IMG/VR virus record: IMGVR_UViG_3300027244_000194
Span: 1-64,000 of that record
Reading direction: 5' to 3' (one strand)
Length of the DNA: 64,000 bases
Origin: a virus
Shown here: positions 5,333-50,037 of the stretch, in pieces
Position numbering within the stretch: the first letter of the stretch is position 1
How the letters are laid out: the number at the start of each line of letters is the position of its first letter
Notes under the pieces: model-generated
Told to the model about the DNA's origin: nothing
Databases searched by the model: none
Seen by the model: the letters and a program-made list of their open reading frames with translations, nothing else
Position numbers and translations under genes: made by a program

Positions 5333-5427
5333 AACCAATCCTTCTATGCTTCCTGGGCCCGATTGTTTCAGAGACCATTAAATATAATCAGATAATAAGT
5401 TTGGTGTAAACAAATCTCTACGGGCGG

Positions 5428-11845: not shown

Positions 11846-12148
11846 ATGAAACACGTTAAACTATATGAACAGTTCATCTCTGAAGGTATTTTCATGACCT
11901 ATAATCAGATGACTCCTTATGAGTACAACAAATTTGTTGAATCATACAAGGAGCTTCACCCTGATAACATGGTATCTTATGACAAGAAGCAGGATATGAC
12001 ATACGGTTTTCGTAAAGGTTCTAAAGAGGCTCATTGGAAATATGATCACGATACATTCAAATTACAACACAGTGAAAAGGACAGAGATGTTCTAGGCCTT
12101 ATTCACGGTAAAAAGTTTGTTGCTAAAAATCACCCATGGTCACTATGA
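11846..12148 (+). CDS. Small internal head protein candidate with CTS
   Basis: A 100-residue protein of unknown activity. Its N-terminus (MKHVKLYEQFISEG) closely matches T4 capsid-targeting sequences such as MKTYQEFIAE, with a predicted gp21 cut after I-S-E, before Gly. The mature part is charged and rich in Tyr, His and Lys. It is probably packed in the prohead core and injected. It overlaps the next gene by ATGA, and that gene also begins with a CTS, so they may form a pair. Confidence 0.6.
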   Translation: MKHVKLYEQFISEGIFMTYNQMTPYEYNKFVESYKELHPDNMVSYDKKQDMTYGFRKGSKEAHWKYDHDTFKLQHSEKDRDVLGLIHGKKFVAKNHPWSL

Positions 12149-42652: not shown

Positions 42653-42690
42653 AGGTGTATAAAAGGTATCAAATAATACACAACACAACA

Positions 42691-43062
42691 GTGGCTAGAA
42701 ATTATCTTAATAACAAGGATCTTTACAACGAGATCGTTAAGTCAAAAGATCAGGACAAATTAACTTCTGATGCTGAAAAAATGCTGATGCTTTTGGCGGA
42801 TCGAGCCATTCGTAAAATGAAATACGTCTACGATGAAGATCGAGAGGACTGTCTTCAGTTTGCGCTACTAGATATGTTGAAGTATTGGAGAAACTTCAAT
42901 CCACAATACCCTAATGCATTTGCATATTTTACAGAGATTGCAAAGCGAGGTTATGCAAAGGGTTGGAATAAGATTCATCCACAAAAGTATAAGGGCACAC
43001 TTTCAATCGATCGTGCAGGTTATAGAACCGAAGATGGAGAAGGTGGAATTTACACAATTTAA
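42691..43062 (+). CDS. 55: Late sigma factor gp55
   Basis: Phage sigma factor that directs RNA polymerase to late promoters. GTG 42691 gives V/M-A-R-N-Y-L-N-N-K-D-L-Y, matching T4 gp55 Y-V-N-N-K-E-L; an upstream GTG at 42655 would add 12 residues but lies in the promoter/terminator zone. The middle has Y-D-E-D-R-E-D-C-L-Q-F-A and N-A-F-A-Y-F-T-E-I, the sigma region 2-like helix pair. At 123 residues it is shorter than T4 gp55 (185); the C-terminal clamp-binding part seems reduced. It overlaps gp4 by 1 nt. Confidence 0.7.
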   Translation: MARNYLNNKDLYNEIVKSKDQDKLTSDAEKMLMLLADRAIRKMKYVYDEDREDCLQFALLDMLKYWRNFNPQYPNAFAYFTEIAKRGYAKGWNKIHPQKYKGTLSIDRAGYRTEDGEGGIYTI

Positions 43063-43538
43063 TGTCAATTAAACGGGTTAAACCTACTAAGAAATCTGGA
43101 TTCATCCAAGGTTACTATAAGCCTCACAACTTAGAAAAGTATGTGGGTCCGCAACCCGTTATTTTCAGAAGTTCATGGGAACGTAAGTTCATGATTTGGT
43201 GCGACACCAATGAAAGAGTTCTAATGTGGTCTAGTGAACCGATTGAAATCAAGTATTGGTCAACTCTTTACAAAAAAGAAAGAACCTACCACCCCGATTT
43301 TTACATTAAGATCCTAAAGGAAGATGGTTCCCAAGAGCAATTGATTGTTGAAATCAAACCCGAAGCTCAAATCACTAAGCCTGAACCACCGAAGACAAAT
43401 TCGAAAAAGGCAATTGACGGTTATAAATTCTTAGCCGAACAGTACGTTACGAATCGTGATAAATATATTTCAGCTAAAAAGTATGCTGAAGACCGAGGTT
43501 GTAGGTTTGTTGTTATGACAGAAAACTCGCTTAAGTGA
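43062..43538 (+). CDS. 4: Head completion protein gp4
   Basis: Head completion protein of the PD-(D/E)XK fold, 158 residues (T4 gp4: 150). Readable pattern: Y-V-G-P-Q-P-V-I-F-R-S-S-W-E-R-K-F, W-C-D-T-N, W-S-S-E-P-I-E-I, then the nuclease-like core H-P-D-F-Y-I-K and L-I-V-E-I-K-P. It acts after packaging, before tail joining. Confidence 0.85.
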   Translation: MSIKRVKPTKKSGFIQGYYKPHNLEKYVGPQPVIFRSSWERKFMIWCDTNERVLMWSSEPIEIKYWSTLYKKERTYHPDFYIKILKEDGSQEQLIVEIKPEAQITKPEPPKTNSKKAIDGYKFLAEQYVTNRDKYISAKKYAEDRGCRFVVMTENSLK

Positions 43539-44140
43539 TGGGAGAAATCAAATCTAAAATAGCAAAGTATTCTAAGGATAATGGAGGTAAGACGGCTGCT
43601 CGAAAGGCGGCCGAGGTATGGTATAACAAAGCTTTAAACTCTTTTAGAGATAAAAGTGTTGCTAAATCGAAAACTTTACCCTTTATTCCCGGTAAAATAT
43701 ATGTTTTCAGGTATGATAACCCGAAAACAGAACAATATCTTGCATGGTGGGACAGAAATCCCGTTGTGTTAGCGCTCGATCCAGTAGCAGGAAATGATTG
43801 CGGAATCAATCTAAATCTATTACCGGTTGAAATTAAAGAAAAACTGTTAGACGATATTTACACACGTCTCAGTGGTTCTATTAAGACACTAACGACAAGA
43901 GCAAAGGATGATGCCAATGCTCAGGGTCGATTACAAATGACTTATGCAGGTGCAAAAAGTTATTTAGACAGATACGGGTTTGGATTTGCTGTTAGGCAGT
44001 ACATCCCGATGTTGAAAAGAAAGCAAGCGGTTGTTAGTTATGAGAACTGGCACCTAATTGCGTTGTGCGATTTCATAGAACTAGAAGGAGCTTCATTAGC
44101 TAGCATTCAGAGACAGTTCAGAGATTACAACAAAAAATGA
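43538..44140 (+). CDS. Late protein, gp2-like DNA-end protector candidate
   Basis: A 200-residue basic protein coupled to gp4 (ATGA overlap; ATG 43538 preferred over GTG 43535). The middle contains P-G-K-I-Y-V-F-R-Y then W-W-D-R-N-P-V-V-L-A-L-D and G-I-N-L-N-L-L-P, a pattern I recall from T4-like head genes near gp4. In T4 genes 2 and 4 are adjacent, so gp2 (which protects DNA ends from RecBCD) is a reasonable but unproven candidate. Confidence 0.45.
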   Translation: MGEIKSKIAKYSKDNGGKTAARKAAEVWYNKALNSFRDKSVAKSKTLPFIPGKIYVFRYDNPKTEQYLAWWDRNPVVLALDPVAGNDCGINLNLLPVEIKEKLLDDIYTRLSGSIKTLTTRAKDDANAQGRLQMTYAGAKSYLDRYGFGFAVRQYIPMLKRKQAVVSYENWHLIALCDFIELEGASLASIQRQFRDYNKK

Positions 44141-44142
44141 AG

Positions 44143-44172: not shown

Positions 44173-45780
44173 ATGGCAGGTTTTGTAGAAAATAGAAACG
44201 GTCCCCTATCGACGGGCAGAAGACCATTCACTCTTAGTGATGGTCTGAAGCGACTTTCGTCGTTCGGTATGTATTATGATGATTTGGTATTGCGCCAATC
44301 TCAAGCAATCGGACCAATGGAAGCGCAATTCGGTTACGGTCAGATCAACCCGATGGGTGTTGACAATGACGACATCTATGCTGCGTTTGCAGCGTTGTCG
44401 ATGACCGACACCAACATGAGAAAGCAAATTCCTTTCTTTGATAAAAACTATCCTGCTAAAAGAGATGAGCTTAGAAGATTCTCACTTCATGATGAAATTG
44501 AAGACATTCTTGACATTCTTTGTGATGAGACAGTTGTCTATGATGAAAAGAACTTTTTCTGTTATCCTGACATCATCGGATTTGATGTATCAGATGAAGT
44601 AGATGCTTATTTTAAGAGAGCATTTAGAGAAATCTATCAATACTTTGGTTTTAACCAAGATCAATCTGCATGGTACTATTTTAGAAAGTTCCTGATTGAT
44701 GGTTACCTAGCGTTTGAAATCATTTATTCACCTGACCAAAAGCAGATCATTGGTTTTAAAGAACTAGATCCTGTAACCCTAATGCCAGGTTATAATAAAG
44801 AAGACGGTAAAAAGGTTTGGATTCAATATAAGGATGATCCTATTAAGGAAAGAGTTCTTTATGATGCACAGATCATTTACATCTCATACTCTTCAATTAC
44901 AACTGCATCAAGAGTTTCTTATGTAGAAAGATTGGTTAGAGCATTTAACCTAATGAGAATCATGGAACACACCCGAGTTATTTGGGCAGTGACTAACGCT
45001 TCATTCAGAATGAAGTTTGTGATTCCAATGGGTGGTAAATCAAAAACACGTGCTAAGCAATCTCTAGCACAATTGATGAATAACTATAAAGAAGTCGTTG
45101 ACTTTGATTGGGAATCAGGTACACTGACAACCGACGGTAAGCCAATGATGCAGTTCAACAAAGAATACTGGTTGCCTTCAAAAGAAGGTGAATCACCAGA
45201 GATTGAAACCCTAGGAGGTGATGGTCCAGATCTATCAGACACGGAAGCTCTTAAGTACTTCTCTGATAAGTTGAAGCATGTATCTAAGATTCCATTCAAC
45301 CGTTTCATGTATGAAGATGGCGGTGGTGAATTCAACCTTGCAGCTGACGGTATGATTAGAGACGAAATCAAGTTCTCTAAATTTGTTAGACGTTTGAGAT
45401 CAGCTTTCCAAGAAGTTCTTGTAAAGCCACTGTTCATCCAGTTGTCTATTAAATTCCCAGAGTTTGCAGATGATGCTGCATTTAGAACTCAAATCGCTCT
45501 AAGATTTAATGAAGAGAACATGTTTGCTGAACTGAAGAACATGGAAATCATGGAACGTAGAATTGACTTCATCGGTTCATTGAAAGATAACCTAGTTATT
45601 ACTGATCCTGCAACGATGGAAGAAGAACACTACTTTGATATGGACTTCTTAGTTGACAGATACTTAAAACTAACTCCAGACGATAAAGCAGCTAACGATG
45701 CATATAAAGCTCGTAAAGAAGCTAAACAAGCTGGTGAAGATGATCCAGACCCAATGGCAGCGATGGGCGGAGGAATGTAA
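44173..45780 (+). CDS. 20: Portal protein gp20
   Basis: Dodecameric portal through which DNA enters and leaves the head. At 535 residues it matches T4 gp20 (524). Typical features are R-F-S-L-H-D-E-I-E-D-I-L-D, D-E-T-V-V-Y-D-E, the R-K-F-L-I-D-G-Y-L segment, and the C-terminal clip/stem region I-P-F-N-R-F-M-Y-E-D. It ends in an acidic/Met-Gly tail. It is the first gene of the 20-67-21-22-23 head cluster in the T4 order. Confidence 0.9.
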   Translation: MAGFVENRNGPLSTGRRPFTLSDGLKRLSSFGMYYDDLVLRQSQAIGPMEAQFGYGQINPMGVDNDDIYAAFAALSMTDTNMRKQIPFFDKNYPAKRDELRRFSLHDEIEDILDILCDETVVYDEKNFFCYPDIIGFDVSDEVDAYFKRAFREIYQYFGFNQDQSAWYYFRKFLIDGYLAFEIIYSPDQKQIIGFKELDPVTLMPGYNKEDGKKVWIQYKDDPIKERVLYDAQIIYISYSSITTASRVSYVERLVRAFNLMRIMEHTRVIWAVTNASFRMKFVIPMGGKSKTRAKQSLAQLMNNYKEVVDFDWESGTLTTDGKPMMQFNKEYWLPSKEGESPEIETLGGDGPDLSDTEALKYFSDKLKHVSKIPFNRFMYEDGGGEFNLAADGMIRDEIKFSKFVRRLRSAFQEVLVKPLFIQLSIKFPEFADDAAFRTQIALRFNEENMFAELKNMEIMERRIDFIGSLKDNLVITDPATMEEEHYFDMDFLVDRYLKLTPDDKAANDAYKARKEAKQAGEDDPDPMAAMGGGM

Positions 45781-45798
45781 CACACAGATAAATAGACT

Positions 45799-46143
45799 AT
45801 GAAAAATCTAAAGACATTTGAACAATACTGGTCTTCAATTACTGAAGATGCTATTAAAGCCGGAGAAGAATCAGAAGTTGTGATCGACGATATGATTACA
45901 ACCGATGGAACTGAAATCTCTTCAGAAGAGATCTTAGGCATTGTAATATCTTCTGAAACAGAGGAAGAAACAGTAGATAAAATGTACGATAAGTTTGGTC
46001 AATTATCATTTTCTACTGAAGACATTGAAAAGATCAAAAAGTATTTCAATGATTATCAAGCAGAAGTGAAAGAGAAAGAAAAAGAAGCTGAGAAAGAAGC
46101 TGATGGTGGAGATGGAGAGGAAGATCCTCTAGCAGATCTATAA
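45799..46143 (+). CDS. Prohead core protein, gp67-like
   Basis: A 114-residue protein beginning MKNLKTFEQYWSSITED, a CTS-like start with a possible cut after I-T-E. The rest is acidic and helical, ending in E-K-E-A-D-G-G-D-G-E-E-D-P-L. Acidic C-terminus, small size and position between portal and protease equal those of T4 gp67, a core protein degraded to internal peptides. Assigned by position and composition. Confidence 0.6.
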   Translation: MKNLKTFEQYWSSITEDAIKAGEESEVVIDDMITTDGTEISSEEILGIVISSETEEETVDKMYDKFGQLSFSTEDIEKIKKYFNDYQAEVKEKEKEAEKEADGGDGEEDPLADL

Positions 46144-46170
46144 AAAATCATTTTTCTCTTTTTTCATCAG

Positions 46171-46179
46171 GATATATAA
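46171..46179 (+). promoter_or_regulatory. Late-promoter-like box GATATATAA
   Basis: GGATATATAAACC, 21 nt before the protease-scaffold gene. Confidence 0.5.
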
Positions 46180-46200: not shown

Positions 46201-48336
46201 ATGAATCAACATAATCTATTGATCCTTGAGAGATCATCGAATACACTGGACTTCAAATCAGAAGGAGGTTCATACGTACTCGAAGGTATTTTCGGAGAGC
46301 TGGACAAAAAGAATAGAAACAATCGTATCTATACAGCTGAAGAATACTTACCACAAATCGAATCTCTACAGGAGAAAATCAAGTCATCTAAGCTATTAGG
46401 TGAGCTTGATCACCCACAAAAATTTGACATTTCTCTAAGAAACGTTTCACACGTAATCGAGGAACTTCACTACGATCAAGATTCTAAGCAAATCAGAGGT
46501 AGAATCAGACTACTAGACACAGATGCTGGAAAGCAAGCTAAAGCTCTAGTTGATTCTGGCATTCCATTGCACATCTCTTCAAGAGCTGCTGGTGTTGTTG
46601 AATCAGACGGTAAAGTTAAAATCAAGCAACTTTTCACTTACGATCTAGTTGCTGATCCAGGTTTCGAGAACGCTGAACTTGCAAGAGTAAATGAATCTTA
46701 CGGACTAGCTAACGACGATCTAATTCAAATCTATGAAATTGGAGGAGTTGCTACTCTACTTGAAACAGAAACTAAAATCGAAAATAACGATACAAACATC
46801 ATGGAAAACAAAGCTAGATTTATAGCGGTTGAAGATTTCAACAAGTACTCTGCCTACCTTGCTGAAGAGATCAAATCGCTTAAAGAAGCTCTAGCCGCCG
46901 TTTCTACTGAGACTATTGAAGAGAAGATGAAAGCTCTTACAGAGTACGTAGAATACGTTGCTGAAAGAGCTGACAAAGGTATTCAGTACTCTGAGTACGT
47001 TGCAGAAAAATTAGATGGTAACATCGAATACTCTAACTACTTGGCAGAAAAGTTGGACCAAGGAATTGAATACTCTGAGCACATCGCTGAGTCAGTAAAT
47101 AACGTTAAGGATTACGCTAATTATTTGGCAGAATCTTACAACGAAGGTGTTACTACAGGTGAGAATGTTCAAAAGTATCTAAACTACCTAAAAGAAAACA
47201 TCGAGTCAATCTCTGAATACGCTGATTACATTGCTGAAACTATTAATTCTAACCTAATCGTTGAAGAAGAAGGTGAAGGAGCAGCAAAAGATCACGAAGA
47301 AGCAGCAGACAAGAACGAGCTAGAAAACGTTGGTGACAATTCAGCTGAAGGTTCAGTTGATGCAGCTGGTGAAGAAGCTGGTGTTGAAGCTGAAGACCTA
47401 GAGGCTGACACTAAAGAGGTTTACTCTGAAGATGACAAGAAAGAACTTGACGCAGCTGATCAAGACGCACCAGAAGATGAAGGTGAAGAAGCTGCTAAAG
47501 AAGTTGTTGAAGCTGAAGAGTCAGAAGAGACTGAAGAGACTGAAGAAGTCGAAGAAGGAAGAGCTTTCGCTGCTGCAGCTAAAGAAGCTAAAGATAAAGG
47601 TGAGAAAGAATTTGAATTCGACGGTAAGACATACCCTGTAACAGTTAAAGAAGGTGAAGAAGTTGAAGAATCTGCTGAAGGTGCTATCGACGCTGAAGAC
47701 CTAGAAGCTGATATGGACGAAGTTTCTTCTGAAGACGATAAGAAAATCACTAAGCAAGCTGATCAGGAAATTCCATCTGAAGAAGATGCAATCACCGATG
47801 ACGCTCTAGAGTCTTACAAAAGAGAAATCTCTGAGAAGCTTTCTTCTCTAATCAACAAAGCTACTGAAAAGAAGACTAACGATCCTCACTTCTTCAAGTT
47901 TGTATCTGAATCTACTAAGACAAGATTCAACGAACTAGAAGTTGAAGACAGAACTAAAGTTCTTTCAGCAGTTGAAGGTAGAGGTTACCTAACAGAGTCA
48001 CAAATTGTTACTCTAATGGAAGGTGCTCTAGTTGAAGTTGCAGGTCAAACTACTCCTTACTTTGTGGAAGCTGCTCCAGCTGAATACAAAGAGATCTGGA
48101 ATAACCTATCTGAAGCTAAGAGAAATCAATTATCTGCTCAAGCTAAGATGGTGAAGCTTTCTACTCCTTACCAAGTTGCTAACTTCTGGCAAACAAGAGA
48201 TCTAAGAGAAGTTGCTCCAGTTATGGAAAAGCTAACTATGATCACAGAAGCTAAGAAAGAAGAAGCTCCTAAGAAATCTATCGGTTACGATGTAACTGGT
48301 ATTGGCGAAGAAATCGCTAAGAGATTTAAGAAGTAA
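46201..48336 (+). CDS. 21-22: Fused prohead protease gp21 and core scaffold gp22
   Basis: A 711-residue fusion. Residues 1-190 are the gp21 serine protease: L-E-G-I-F-G-E-L-D, N-R-N-N-R-I-Y, L-G-E-L-D-H-P (catalytic His region), and I-S-S-R-A-A-G (catalytic Ser). Then come seven 14-residue helical repeats (46945-47259), a long acidic part with one E-F-E-F-D-G-K-T-Y module, and a gp22-like helical C-terminus. T4 makes gp21 and gp22 from separate genes. An in-frame ATG at 46801 (MENKARFIAVEDF), after L-L-E-T-E, could yield scaffold alone, like lambda C/Nu3. Terminator follows. Confidence 0.8.
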   Translation: MNQHNLLILERSSNTLDFKSEGGSYVLEGIFGELDKKNRNNRIYTAEEYLPQIESLQEKIKSSKLLGELDHPQKFDISLRNVSHVIEELHYDQDSKQIRGRIRLLDTDAGKQAKALVDSGIPLHISSRAAGVVESDGKVKIKQLFTYDLVADPGFENAELARVNESYGLANDDLIQIYEIGGVATLLETETKIENNDTNIMENKARFIAVEDFNKYSAYLAEEIKSLKEALAAVSTETIEEKMKALTEYVEYVAERADKGIQYSEYVAEKLDGNIEYSNYLAEKLDQGIEYSEHIAESVNNVKDYANYLAESYNEGVTTGENVQKYLNYLKENIESISEYADYIAETINSNLIVEEEGEGAAKDHEEAADKNELENVGDNSAEGSVDAAGEEAGVEAEDLEADTKEVYSEDDKKELDAADQDAPEDEGEEAAKEVVEAEESEETEETEEVEEGRAFAAAAKEAKDKGEKEFEFDGKTYPVTVKEGEEVEESAEGAIDAEDLEADMDEVSSEDDKKITKQADQEIPSEEDAITDDALESYKREISEKLSSLINKATEKKTNDPHFFKFVSESTKTRFNELEVEDRTKVLSAVEGRGYLTESQIVTLMEGALVEVAGQTTPYFVEAAPAEYKEIWNNLSEAKRNQLSAQAKMVKLSTPYQVANFWQTRDLREVAPVMEKLTMITEAKKEEAPKKSIGYDVTGIGEEIAKRFKK
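46945..47259 (+). repeat. Seven 14-residue repeats in the scaffold
   Basis: Consensus Y-S-x-Y-[VL]-A-E-K-L-D-x-G-I-E: five in tandem from residue 249, a 7-residue break, then two more. Fourteen residues equal two heptads, so the block is an extended regular coiled coil, suitable for the prohead core. Confidence 0.75.
47554..47652 (+). repeat. E-F-E-F-D-G-K-T-Y module in the scaffold
   Basis: Residues 452-484, matching two modules of the 9948 gene. It is flanked by a roughly 30-residue acidic duplication (A-E-D-L-E-A-D...E-D-D-K-K at both sides). Confidence 0.7.
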
Positions 48337-48543: not shown

Positions 48544-50037
48544 ATGGCAAATTTAATCAATGAAGCTGAAATCAGAGCAACATGGGCTCCTATCATCGAG
48601 TCTGCTACTGGTATCAACGATTCAAACAAACTAGCTTGGATGTCAGAATACTGCCACAATCACAAGCTTTATGAAGAAGCTACACTTTCTTCAGTTCTAC
48701 CATCTATGGTAAAAGGTATGGGTGCAGTTTCTTTCCCATCAGCATTCAACACTGCAGGTTCTGCAGGTGACGGTTCTGGTGACAAGTCTCCATCACTACT
48801 TCCTCTAGCAATGCAAGTTGCTGCACAAACTGTAGGTCTAGATCTAGTTCCTGTAGTTCCTATGGCTGGTCCAATGGGTCTACTTTCTTACCTAGACTTC
48901 GTATACGACGGTGGCGCGAAGAGAGATGACGCTAAACTAGCTAACGTATACTACTTCTCAACTGATTCAGGTACTGGTGCTGATATCGCTGGTGGTGCTA
49001 CTCACGCTGCATACGAGTTCGTTGGTACTTCAAGAATCGACGGTAACGACATCTACAAGGTGATCGGTACTGCACTAATCGATGCTAACGTACAAGCTGA
49101 CTTCAGATTGGCTGTAGCTGTTCCAGCTGCAACAGTTGAACTAGTTAAGGCTCTAGAAGACCACATTCCTGGTTTCTCTGCATCTAACGCTGCTGGCGAT
49201 CCTTTCAAGAGAGAAGACGGTGAGAGAAAGGCTGAGAACATCATGGGTCTATCTCTATTCTCTAAGTCAGTTGCTGCTGAAACTTTCCAAGTTGCTGCTG
49301 CAGTTACTAGAGAGCAAGTTCAAGATCTTAAGCAATTCGGTGTTGACGCTGTAGCTCAAGTTGAGGCAGTTCTAACTAACGAACTAACTCAGTCAATCAA
49401 CAACCTAATCCTAAGAGAAATGAAGGTTCTAGGTTACAGAAACGTTAAGTCTGTATTCCCAGCAGCTCCTCTTAATGTACTTGGTAATTCAACTGGTTTC
49501 GACCTAAAACTTCCTGCTGCTGCTGATCTAGCTGGTGGCGAGACTGTTGCTTCAGTTCACAGAAGACTTCTTTCACAGATTCTAGCTGCTGCTAACTTGA
49601 TCGCTAACAGAGGTAGAAGAGGTGCTGGTAACTTCGCAGTTGTTGGTCCACAGACTGCAACTGTTCTTCAAGCTGTAGCTGGTTTCGTTGCAAACCCAAT
49701 GGCTAACACTATCTCTCAAGCTGCTGGTGCTATCTACCCTGTAGGTTCTGTTGCTGGTATCAATGTTTACACTGATCCAAGAAAAGCATGGGACGATTAC
49801 ACTGTAGTAGTTGGTAGAAAAGGTGATGGTAACTCTCCAGGTCTAGTATTCATGCCATACCTAATGGCTGAATCAGTTCAGACTATCGCAGAGGGTACTA
49901 TGGCTCCTAAGATTGCTGTTAAGTCTAGATTCGCTCTAGTTGAAGCAGGTTTCCACCCAGAGACTCAGTACGTATCATTCGAAGTTACGAATGACGCAGC
50001 TGGTGCTACTTGGTCTAACCTACTAAACCTAGCTTAA
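48544..50037 (+). CDS. 23: Major capsid protein gp23
   Basis: Main head protein, 497 residues (T4: 521). Matches the T4-like capsid pattern: L-V-P-V-V-P-M-A-G-P-M-G-L, R-E-Q-V-Q-D-L-K-Q-F-G-V-D, N-R-G-R-R-G-A-G-N-F, and I-Y-P-V-G-S-V-A-G-I. A probable gp21 cut lies in H-K-L-Y-E-E-A near residue 45, earlier than the T4 site (65). Codon use is strongly biased to CTA, GCT and GTT, as for a very highly expressed gene. Own promoter and terminator. Confidence 0.92.
   Translation: MANLINEAEIRATWAPIIESATGINDSNKLAWMSEYCHNHKLYEEATLSSVLPSMVKGMGAVSFPSAFNTAGSAGDGSGDKSPSLLPLAMQVAAQTVGLDLVPVVPMAGPMGLLSYLDFVYDGGAKRDDAKLANVYYFSTDSGTGADIAGGATHAAYEFVGTSRIDGNDIYKVIGTALIDANVQADFRLAVAVPAATVELVKALEDHIPGFSASNAAGDPFKREDGERKAENIMGLSLFSKSVAAETFQVAAAVTREQVQDLKQFGVDAVAQVEAVLTNELTQSINNLILREMKVLGYRNVKSVFPAAPLNVLGNSTGFDLKLPAAADLAGGETVASVHRRLLSQILAAANLIANRGRRGAGNFAVVGPQTATVLQAVAGFVANPMANTISQAAGAIYPVGSVAGINVYTDPRKAWDDYTVVVGRKGDGNSPGLVFMPYLMAESVQTIAEGTMAPKIAVKSRFALVEAGFHPETQYVSFEVTNDAAGATWSNLLNLA

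Follow-up and report, generated by a model that had tools for sequence, protein, structure and literature searches.

The locus described here raises the question of how a T4-type prohead protease could be kept in proportion to its scaffold when both appear to be encoded in a single reading frame. Nested protease/scaffold genes are already known from lambda, Mu, and herpesviruses, with T4 serving as the model for separate genes. The window, i.e. the whole 64,000 nt stretch of IMG/VR record IMGVR_UViG_3300027244_000194 that was analyzed, contains 711 codons without a stop in the ORF at 46201–48336, and reading-frame analysis gave the local gene order as portal gene, 114-residue ORF, fused gene, and gp23-type major capsid gene:

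44173–45780, plus strand: portal protein, gp20 type (PF07230, 6.6e-68)
45799–46143, plus strand: acidic ORF of 114 residues at the gp67/gp68 position, N-terminus MKNLKTFEQYWSSITE (assigned by position only)
46170–46178, plus strand: GGATATATA, putative late-promoter motif 5' of the fused gene (exact match to GRATATATA)
46201–48336, plus strand: fused prohead protease-scaffold gene, 711 residues (uninterrupted ORF; homologs likewise fused in 192/192 complete relatives)
48544–50037, plus strand: major capsid protein, gp23 type (PF07068, 9e-43)

The N-terminal part of the product is readily assigned. Residues 17–136 match Pfam PF03420, Peptidase_S77 (2e-11, 44.2 bits, gathering cut-off 27), and the 711-residue protein matches PHROG 207, “head maturation protease”, at 1.9e-36. 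The structure of T4 gp21 (PDB 5jbl) is the sole PDB profile match of the protein, and the 5jbl chains are the sole significant Foldseek matches of its AlphaFold model (E 3.4e-8, TM-score by target 0.65). These profile and fold matches assign residues 1–180 to the T4 gp21 family of prohead proteases. H71, S126, S127, and D148 are invariant across all relatives, and H71, S126/S127, and D148 are candidate catalytic residues, the triad being assigned by position. T4 gp21 cleaves after (L/I)xE (PMC9026906), and such motifs stand at both ends of the domain:

46201–46740, plus strand: S77 (T4 gp21-type) protease domain, residues 1–180 (PF03420; Foldseek to 5jbl; invariant columns)
46222–46230, plus strand: ILE, residues 8–10, putative (L/I)xE site for autocleavage near the N-terminus (no variation at I8 or E10)
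46729–46737, plus strand: IYE179, putative cleavage site where the protease domain ends (found in most relatives but missing from some lineages)
46756–46764, plus strand: LLE188, a further putative cleavage site, within the linker (conservation incomplete among relatives)

The ILE10 site resembles LIE-9 of T4 gp21 (PMC9026906), and IYE179 and LLE188 are predicted sites at which the protease could be released. PHROG 207 spans 519 positions, of which split proteases occupy only the first ~220; fused members are probably already inside this family, annotated merely as proteases.

The preliminary description of this DNA held that a gp21-like protease runs into a repeat-rich region in one frame, whereas T4 encodes the two proteins separately, and it named a sequencing error removing a stop as the finding that would speak against fusion. 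Family searches with three queries (the window plus a clade alignment, the subgroup of contig L015, and a huge-phage subgroup) recovered 226 family loci from IMG/VR contigs and huge-phage genomes, the latter including five genomes of 462–735 kb. A complete ORF is present at 192 of these loci and is fused in all 192 (577–836 residues). Because these three queries contained the protease, alone or within the full-length protein, the search was repeated with the scaffold C-terminal domain alone, and the protease was found in the same ORF at 78/78 loci uncut by contig ends. Four further IMG/VR contigs (L001, L002, L003, and L007) carry the identical 711-residue ORF, a finding that, with the fusion in every complete relative, refutes an assembly or sequencing error that deleted a stop between two genes; nothing was found in favor of such an error, and its probability is negligible. 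All nine annotated phages checked encode the protease separately (206–278 residues), and eight of them carry a T4-type gene in the scaffold position 3' of it, the neighbor in Listeria phage LPJP1 being unrelated. In a tree of the protease domain, fused and split forms fall on opposite sides of one branch (support 98/97), in a topology whose root is not fixed and several of whose branches are long. The protease-scaffold fusion is real and clade-wide, and the contrast with T4 drawn in the preliminary description holds for the annotated phages. A literature search, with coverage mostly outside subscription journals, found no account of a fused gp21-gp22 gene.

The remainder of the frame is built from a disordered linker, helical repeats, acidic stretches, and a conserved C-terminal domain:

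46741–46800, plus strand: linker, variable and gappy, predicted disordered, forming an A-rich region 5' of the internal start (pLDDT; base count)
46801–46803, plus strand: internal ATG (Met201), proposed start of a free 511-residue scaffold (Met in 127/127 distinct relatives; context tests)
46801–48336, plus strand: scaffold part, 511 residues, with 19 (L/I)xE sites (motif count)
46915–47271, plus strand: helical 14-residue repeats of the YxxYhAE type, residues 239–357 (alignment, site spacing, predicted helices)
47530–47640, plus strand: small folded insert, residues ~444–480, between acidic disordered stretches (pLDDT 84–88)
47824–48333, plus strand: C-terminal domain, residues 542–711, conserved in the clade (alignments)

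Beyond about residue 210, the helical repeats are followed by acidic low-complexity stretches and then by the C-terminal domain. Comparison of residues 201–357 and 534–711 with PHROGs gave no match to a scaffold profile, including PHROG 237 (the T4 gp22 scaffold family); in the same comparison PHROG scaffold profiles do match the annotated gp22 proteins of S-H25 and phiAS5. For the scaffold part, BLASTP gave only a coiled-coil type of match, to the phi30-3 scaffold (E 0.002), and gp22 homology was rejected. In GAP32, phiAS5, and KN2-1, tblastn alignments cross the stop that separates the two genes; they were discarded as evidence, because composition alone can align coiled coils and the start methionines fail to match up. 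From its position and architecture rather than from gp22 homology, we infer that the region of residues 201–711 is a scaffold: a separate scaffold gene occupies the matching position, between the protease and capsid genes, in annotated T4-like phages. The name given to it in the preliminary description is accordingly retained on position and architecture, with no gp22 profile match behind it.

The (L/I)xE motif occurs at 19 sites in the scaffold part, compared with 9.9 in shuffled sequence (p=0.004), and is enriched about twofold in each lineage tested, an enrichment that arises largely because the 14-residue repeat contains the motif. A helical, repeat-rich region full of potential gp21-type sites is not what would be expected if the C-terminal 500 residues served the protease as a tail for targeting or regulation and the core were built by another protein. 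Such a role could account for the failure to detect gp22 homology, and further acidic or coiled-coil ORFs do lie nearby, at 45799 and 50137; yet the gap between protease and capsid genes, which is the place of gp22 in annotated T4-like phages, holds no other ORF, and we regard this role as quite unlikely. Taken as a scaffold, the region provides a named candidate for the phages with the largest known genomes; to our knowledge no scaffold had previously been identified for them.

Relatives differ in how many YxxYhAE-type repeats they carry, from 3 to 12 (L014 and L026–L030), with 10–12 in phages of 635–735 kb and 3 in a phage of 462 kb. A link between repeat number and head size is possible, and more genomes are needed to judge it. 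The small insert at 47530–47640 (GRAFAAAAKEAKDKGEKEFEFDGKTYPVTVKEG) is missing from most aligned relatives; a 57% identical copy occurs at L024:5001-5126, on a contig that is otherwise different, and the insert may be a mobile domain.

A strict fusion would produce scaffold and protease at 1:1, unlike the T4 core, which contains ~576 gp22 and 100 gp21 molecules (PMC5694885); a second start yielding free scaffold would resolve this ratio. The preliminary description proposed ATG 46801 as such a start, placing it after L-L-E-T-E. The ATG is present, as residue 201; LLETE, at residues 186–190, lies somewhat upstream, the ATG following ten residues further on. As a candidate internal start it has gained comparative backing. 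Met201 is conserved in 127/127 distinct relatives (63/63 in an earlier set), which range down to 31–46% identity, and among 11 representative relatives it is the sole invariant residue between E165 and Y216, with other internal methionines conserved in 27–55%. Linker residues next to it are mostly 3–60% conserved. Across the 127 relatives the linker before Met201 varies by up to 29 residues, and the distance from the Met to a conserved Tyr stays at 12–15. A scaffold-seeded search added 48 distinct sequences, partly overlapping the 127, all with an equivalent of Met201: 43 were found by pattern search, and the remaining five carry MEEFVKTDD at the same site. The peptides that begin at Met201 (MAES, MAEF, MENK, MEEF, MANE, MNKN, and MDKN in different relatives) look like protein N-termini. 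Residues 183–209 of the linker have pLDDT <50 in the AlphaFold model, and side-chain packing or another structural role for Met201 is unlikely because the linker is predicted to be disordered. This pattern of conservation suggests that a free scaffold of 511 residues is synthesized from 46801.

The sequence context of the codon was compared with that of the other starts in the window. Shine-Dalgarno sequences are missing from the window's genes, AGGAG preceding 2% of starts compared with 1% of internal ATGs; the gene starts instead have A-rich upstream regions. Adenine makes up 12 of the 20 bases before 46801; the corresponding figure is 9.1 for gene starts and 6.8 for the remaining in-frame ATGs (p=0.017), and the A-rich direction is seen at the internal ATG in 14/14 relatives. 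Fisher combination across nine lineages, whose independence is incomplete, gives 6e-5 (A content) and 5e-4 (weak structure). In the 127 relatives A is found at −15 in 100%, at −14 and −11 in >90%, and at −3 in 69%, and T is never found at −3. Initiation in Flavobacterium johnsoniae is favored by A at −3, −6, −12, and −13 and by low structure (PMC6847099), determinants that the adenine pattern and weak structure at 46801 fit. Two context tests gave no special signal: a log-odds start model built from 61 window genes ranked 46801 114th of 406 internal ATGs, not singling it out, and codon choice given the linker peptide showed no significant A-bias (p 0.10–0.52), implying that much of the A-richness follows from N/K/E/Q-rich residues. 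The case for the internal start is for this reason taken to rest on the invariance of the codon, and the context is treated as permissive.

The moderate context scores at 46801 would be expected if only the 711-residue precursor were made, with self-cleavage parting protease from scaffold and Met201 being a relic of an ancestral gp22-type start or a mark of the domain boundary. IYE179 and LLE188 offer candidate sites for this in the linker, and gpO of P2 provides a precedent for protease and scaffold from one gene (PMC8508860). A relic methionine, however, is not expected to remain invariant in 127 distinct sequences of such divergence, with varying neighbors and linker length, and the resulting 1:1 ratio would be far from that of T4; production of the precursor as the single product is therefore unlikely in our judgment. 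We consider it likely instead that nested starts on one mRNA give both the 711-residue precursor and a more abundant, free 511-residue scaffold.

A free scaffold could also be translated from a separate, shorter mRNA whose promoter lies within the protease-coding part, as for herpesvirus UL26.5, where 3'-coterminal transcripts are established (PMC4498786); this would require the same conserved ATG. The distribution of a putative promoter motif bears on the point. GRATATATA has seven exact matches in the window versus 0.93 expected. Copies at 44142, 46170, 48454, and 50100 lie directly 5' of the portal, fused, capsid, and 404-residue genes, respectively, and further copies are found at 5427 and 7592; when one mismatch is allowed, the motif does not exceed chance frequency. 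It is probably the late promoter element of this phage, its consensus being deduced from the window itself. No exact copy occurs inside the fused gene, which favors initiation on the long mRNA over an internal promoter, to the extent that the deduced consensus holds; we regard a separate transcript as very improbable. A 135-residue ORF at 42655–43062 of the window has a weak match to Sigma70 region 2 (E 0.012) and is a candidate for a late sigma factor of the gp55 type, one that could recognize GRATATATA.

Nested initiation on a single late mRNA would thus generate two in-frame, 3'-coterminal products, the full-length protease-scaffold precursor from ATG 46201 and, by internal translation and in greater amount, the free scaffold from ATG 46801. 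The scaffold part of the precursor would bring the protease into the prohead core, and the free scaffold would supply the remainder of the core, so that scaffold would outnumber protease, which is out of reach for a strict fusion. Once the shell is assembled, the protease would free itself at (L/I)xE sites around residues 179–188 and would then cut the scaffold to pieces at the (L/I)xE motifs repeated along it.

With T4 gp21/gp22 the gene shares the protease family and fold, the order portal, protease, scaffold, and gp23 capsid protein, and an (L/I)xE-rich scaffold region; it differs in that protease and scaffold are separate genes in T4 and in the annotated relatives checked, and in that its scaffold part lacks gp22 similarity. 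T4 gene 21 has its own second start, Met45, which gives a short protease (PMC9026906), a product different from the free scaffold proposed here. The analogy with lambda C/Nu3 drawn in the preliminary description is apt, and Mu and herpesvirus UL26/UL26.5 are equally close. Lambda C belongs to a protease family different from S77, and its host uses Shine-Dalgarno initiation, whereas the start context here is of the Bacteroidota kind. Both genes place protease and scaffold in one frame, and for lambda a scaffold made also from an internal start, as proposed here, is described (Shaw and Murialdo 1980, as cited in PMC8508860). The Mu protease/scaffold gene differs in its Shine-Dalgarno-led start and in its unrelated scaffold. 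Herpesvirus UL26/UL26.5 encodes a protease-scaffold precursor and a 3'-coterminal, in-frame scaffold (PMC4498786), and gp21 and the herpes protease are held to be homologous (PMC5694885); the herpesvirus pair differs in using nested transcripts and in its Ser-His-His catalytic triad, compared with the H, S, and D candidates here. For P2 gpO we know of no conserved nested scaffold start; its likeness is that of a single protein with protease and scaffold (PMC8508860). Sequence comparison best fits a nested protease/scaffold gene of the sort known from lambda C/Nu3, Mu, and herpes UL26/UL26.5, with an enzyme of the T4 protease family. Its occurrence in huge phages with a T4-type protease suggests that tying protease to scaffold, together with a second start for the scaffold, is a recurring way to dose a dangerous protease within a growing head.

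We also favor, with less assurance, the broader proposal that the nested gene extends throughout a Bacteroidota-infecting, T4-derived clade with genomes of up to 735 kb, that its internal start signal is adenine based and independent of Shine-Dalgarno pairing, and that repeat number possibly tracks head size. Start selection in Bacteroidota is poorly understood, and the fused gene lends itself to the study of SD-independent internal initiation in these bacteria. The viral record also encodes a ribosomal protein bS21, at G000:C1:110585-110734 (E 3.1e-12). Bacteroidota hosts are reported for bS21-encoding relatives (PMC9723584), and A-rich, SD-less starts together with the bS21 gene fit a Bacteroidota host; the bS21 gene would also be in line with a takeover of initiation.

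The head protease of a Lak megaphage (L031:3929-5677), when TAG is read as Q, likewise continues in frame into a long, acidic scaffold-like region and an FW-containing C-terminal domain. It differs in being without YxxYhAE repeats and an evident internal start, and it sits on a long branch in the tree; its placement is uncertain.

Other head genes may lie elsewhere in the window. Just 5' of the portal gene, the window encodes a TnsA-like endonuclease (43062–43538), possibly a gp4-type head completion protein, and a gp2-type DNA end protector (43535–44140). ORFs at 11846, 16757, 18815, 45799, and 50137 have N-termini resembling T4 capsid-targeting sequences with a terminal (L/I)xE site, e.g. 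MKHVKLYEQFISE, MKHVKLFEQFIFE, and the N-terminus MKNLKTFEQYWSSITE listed above, and are candidate internal head proteins.
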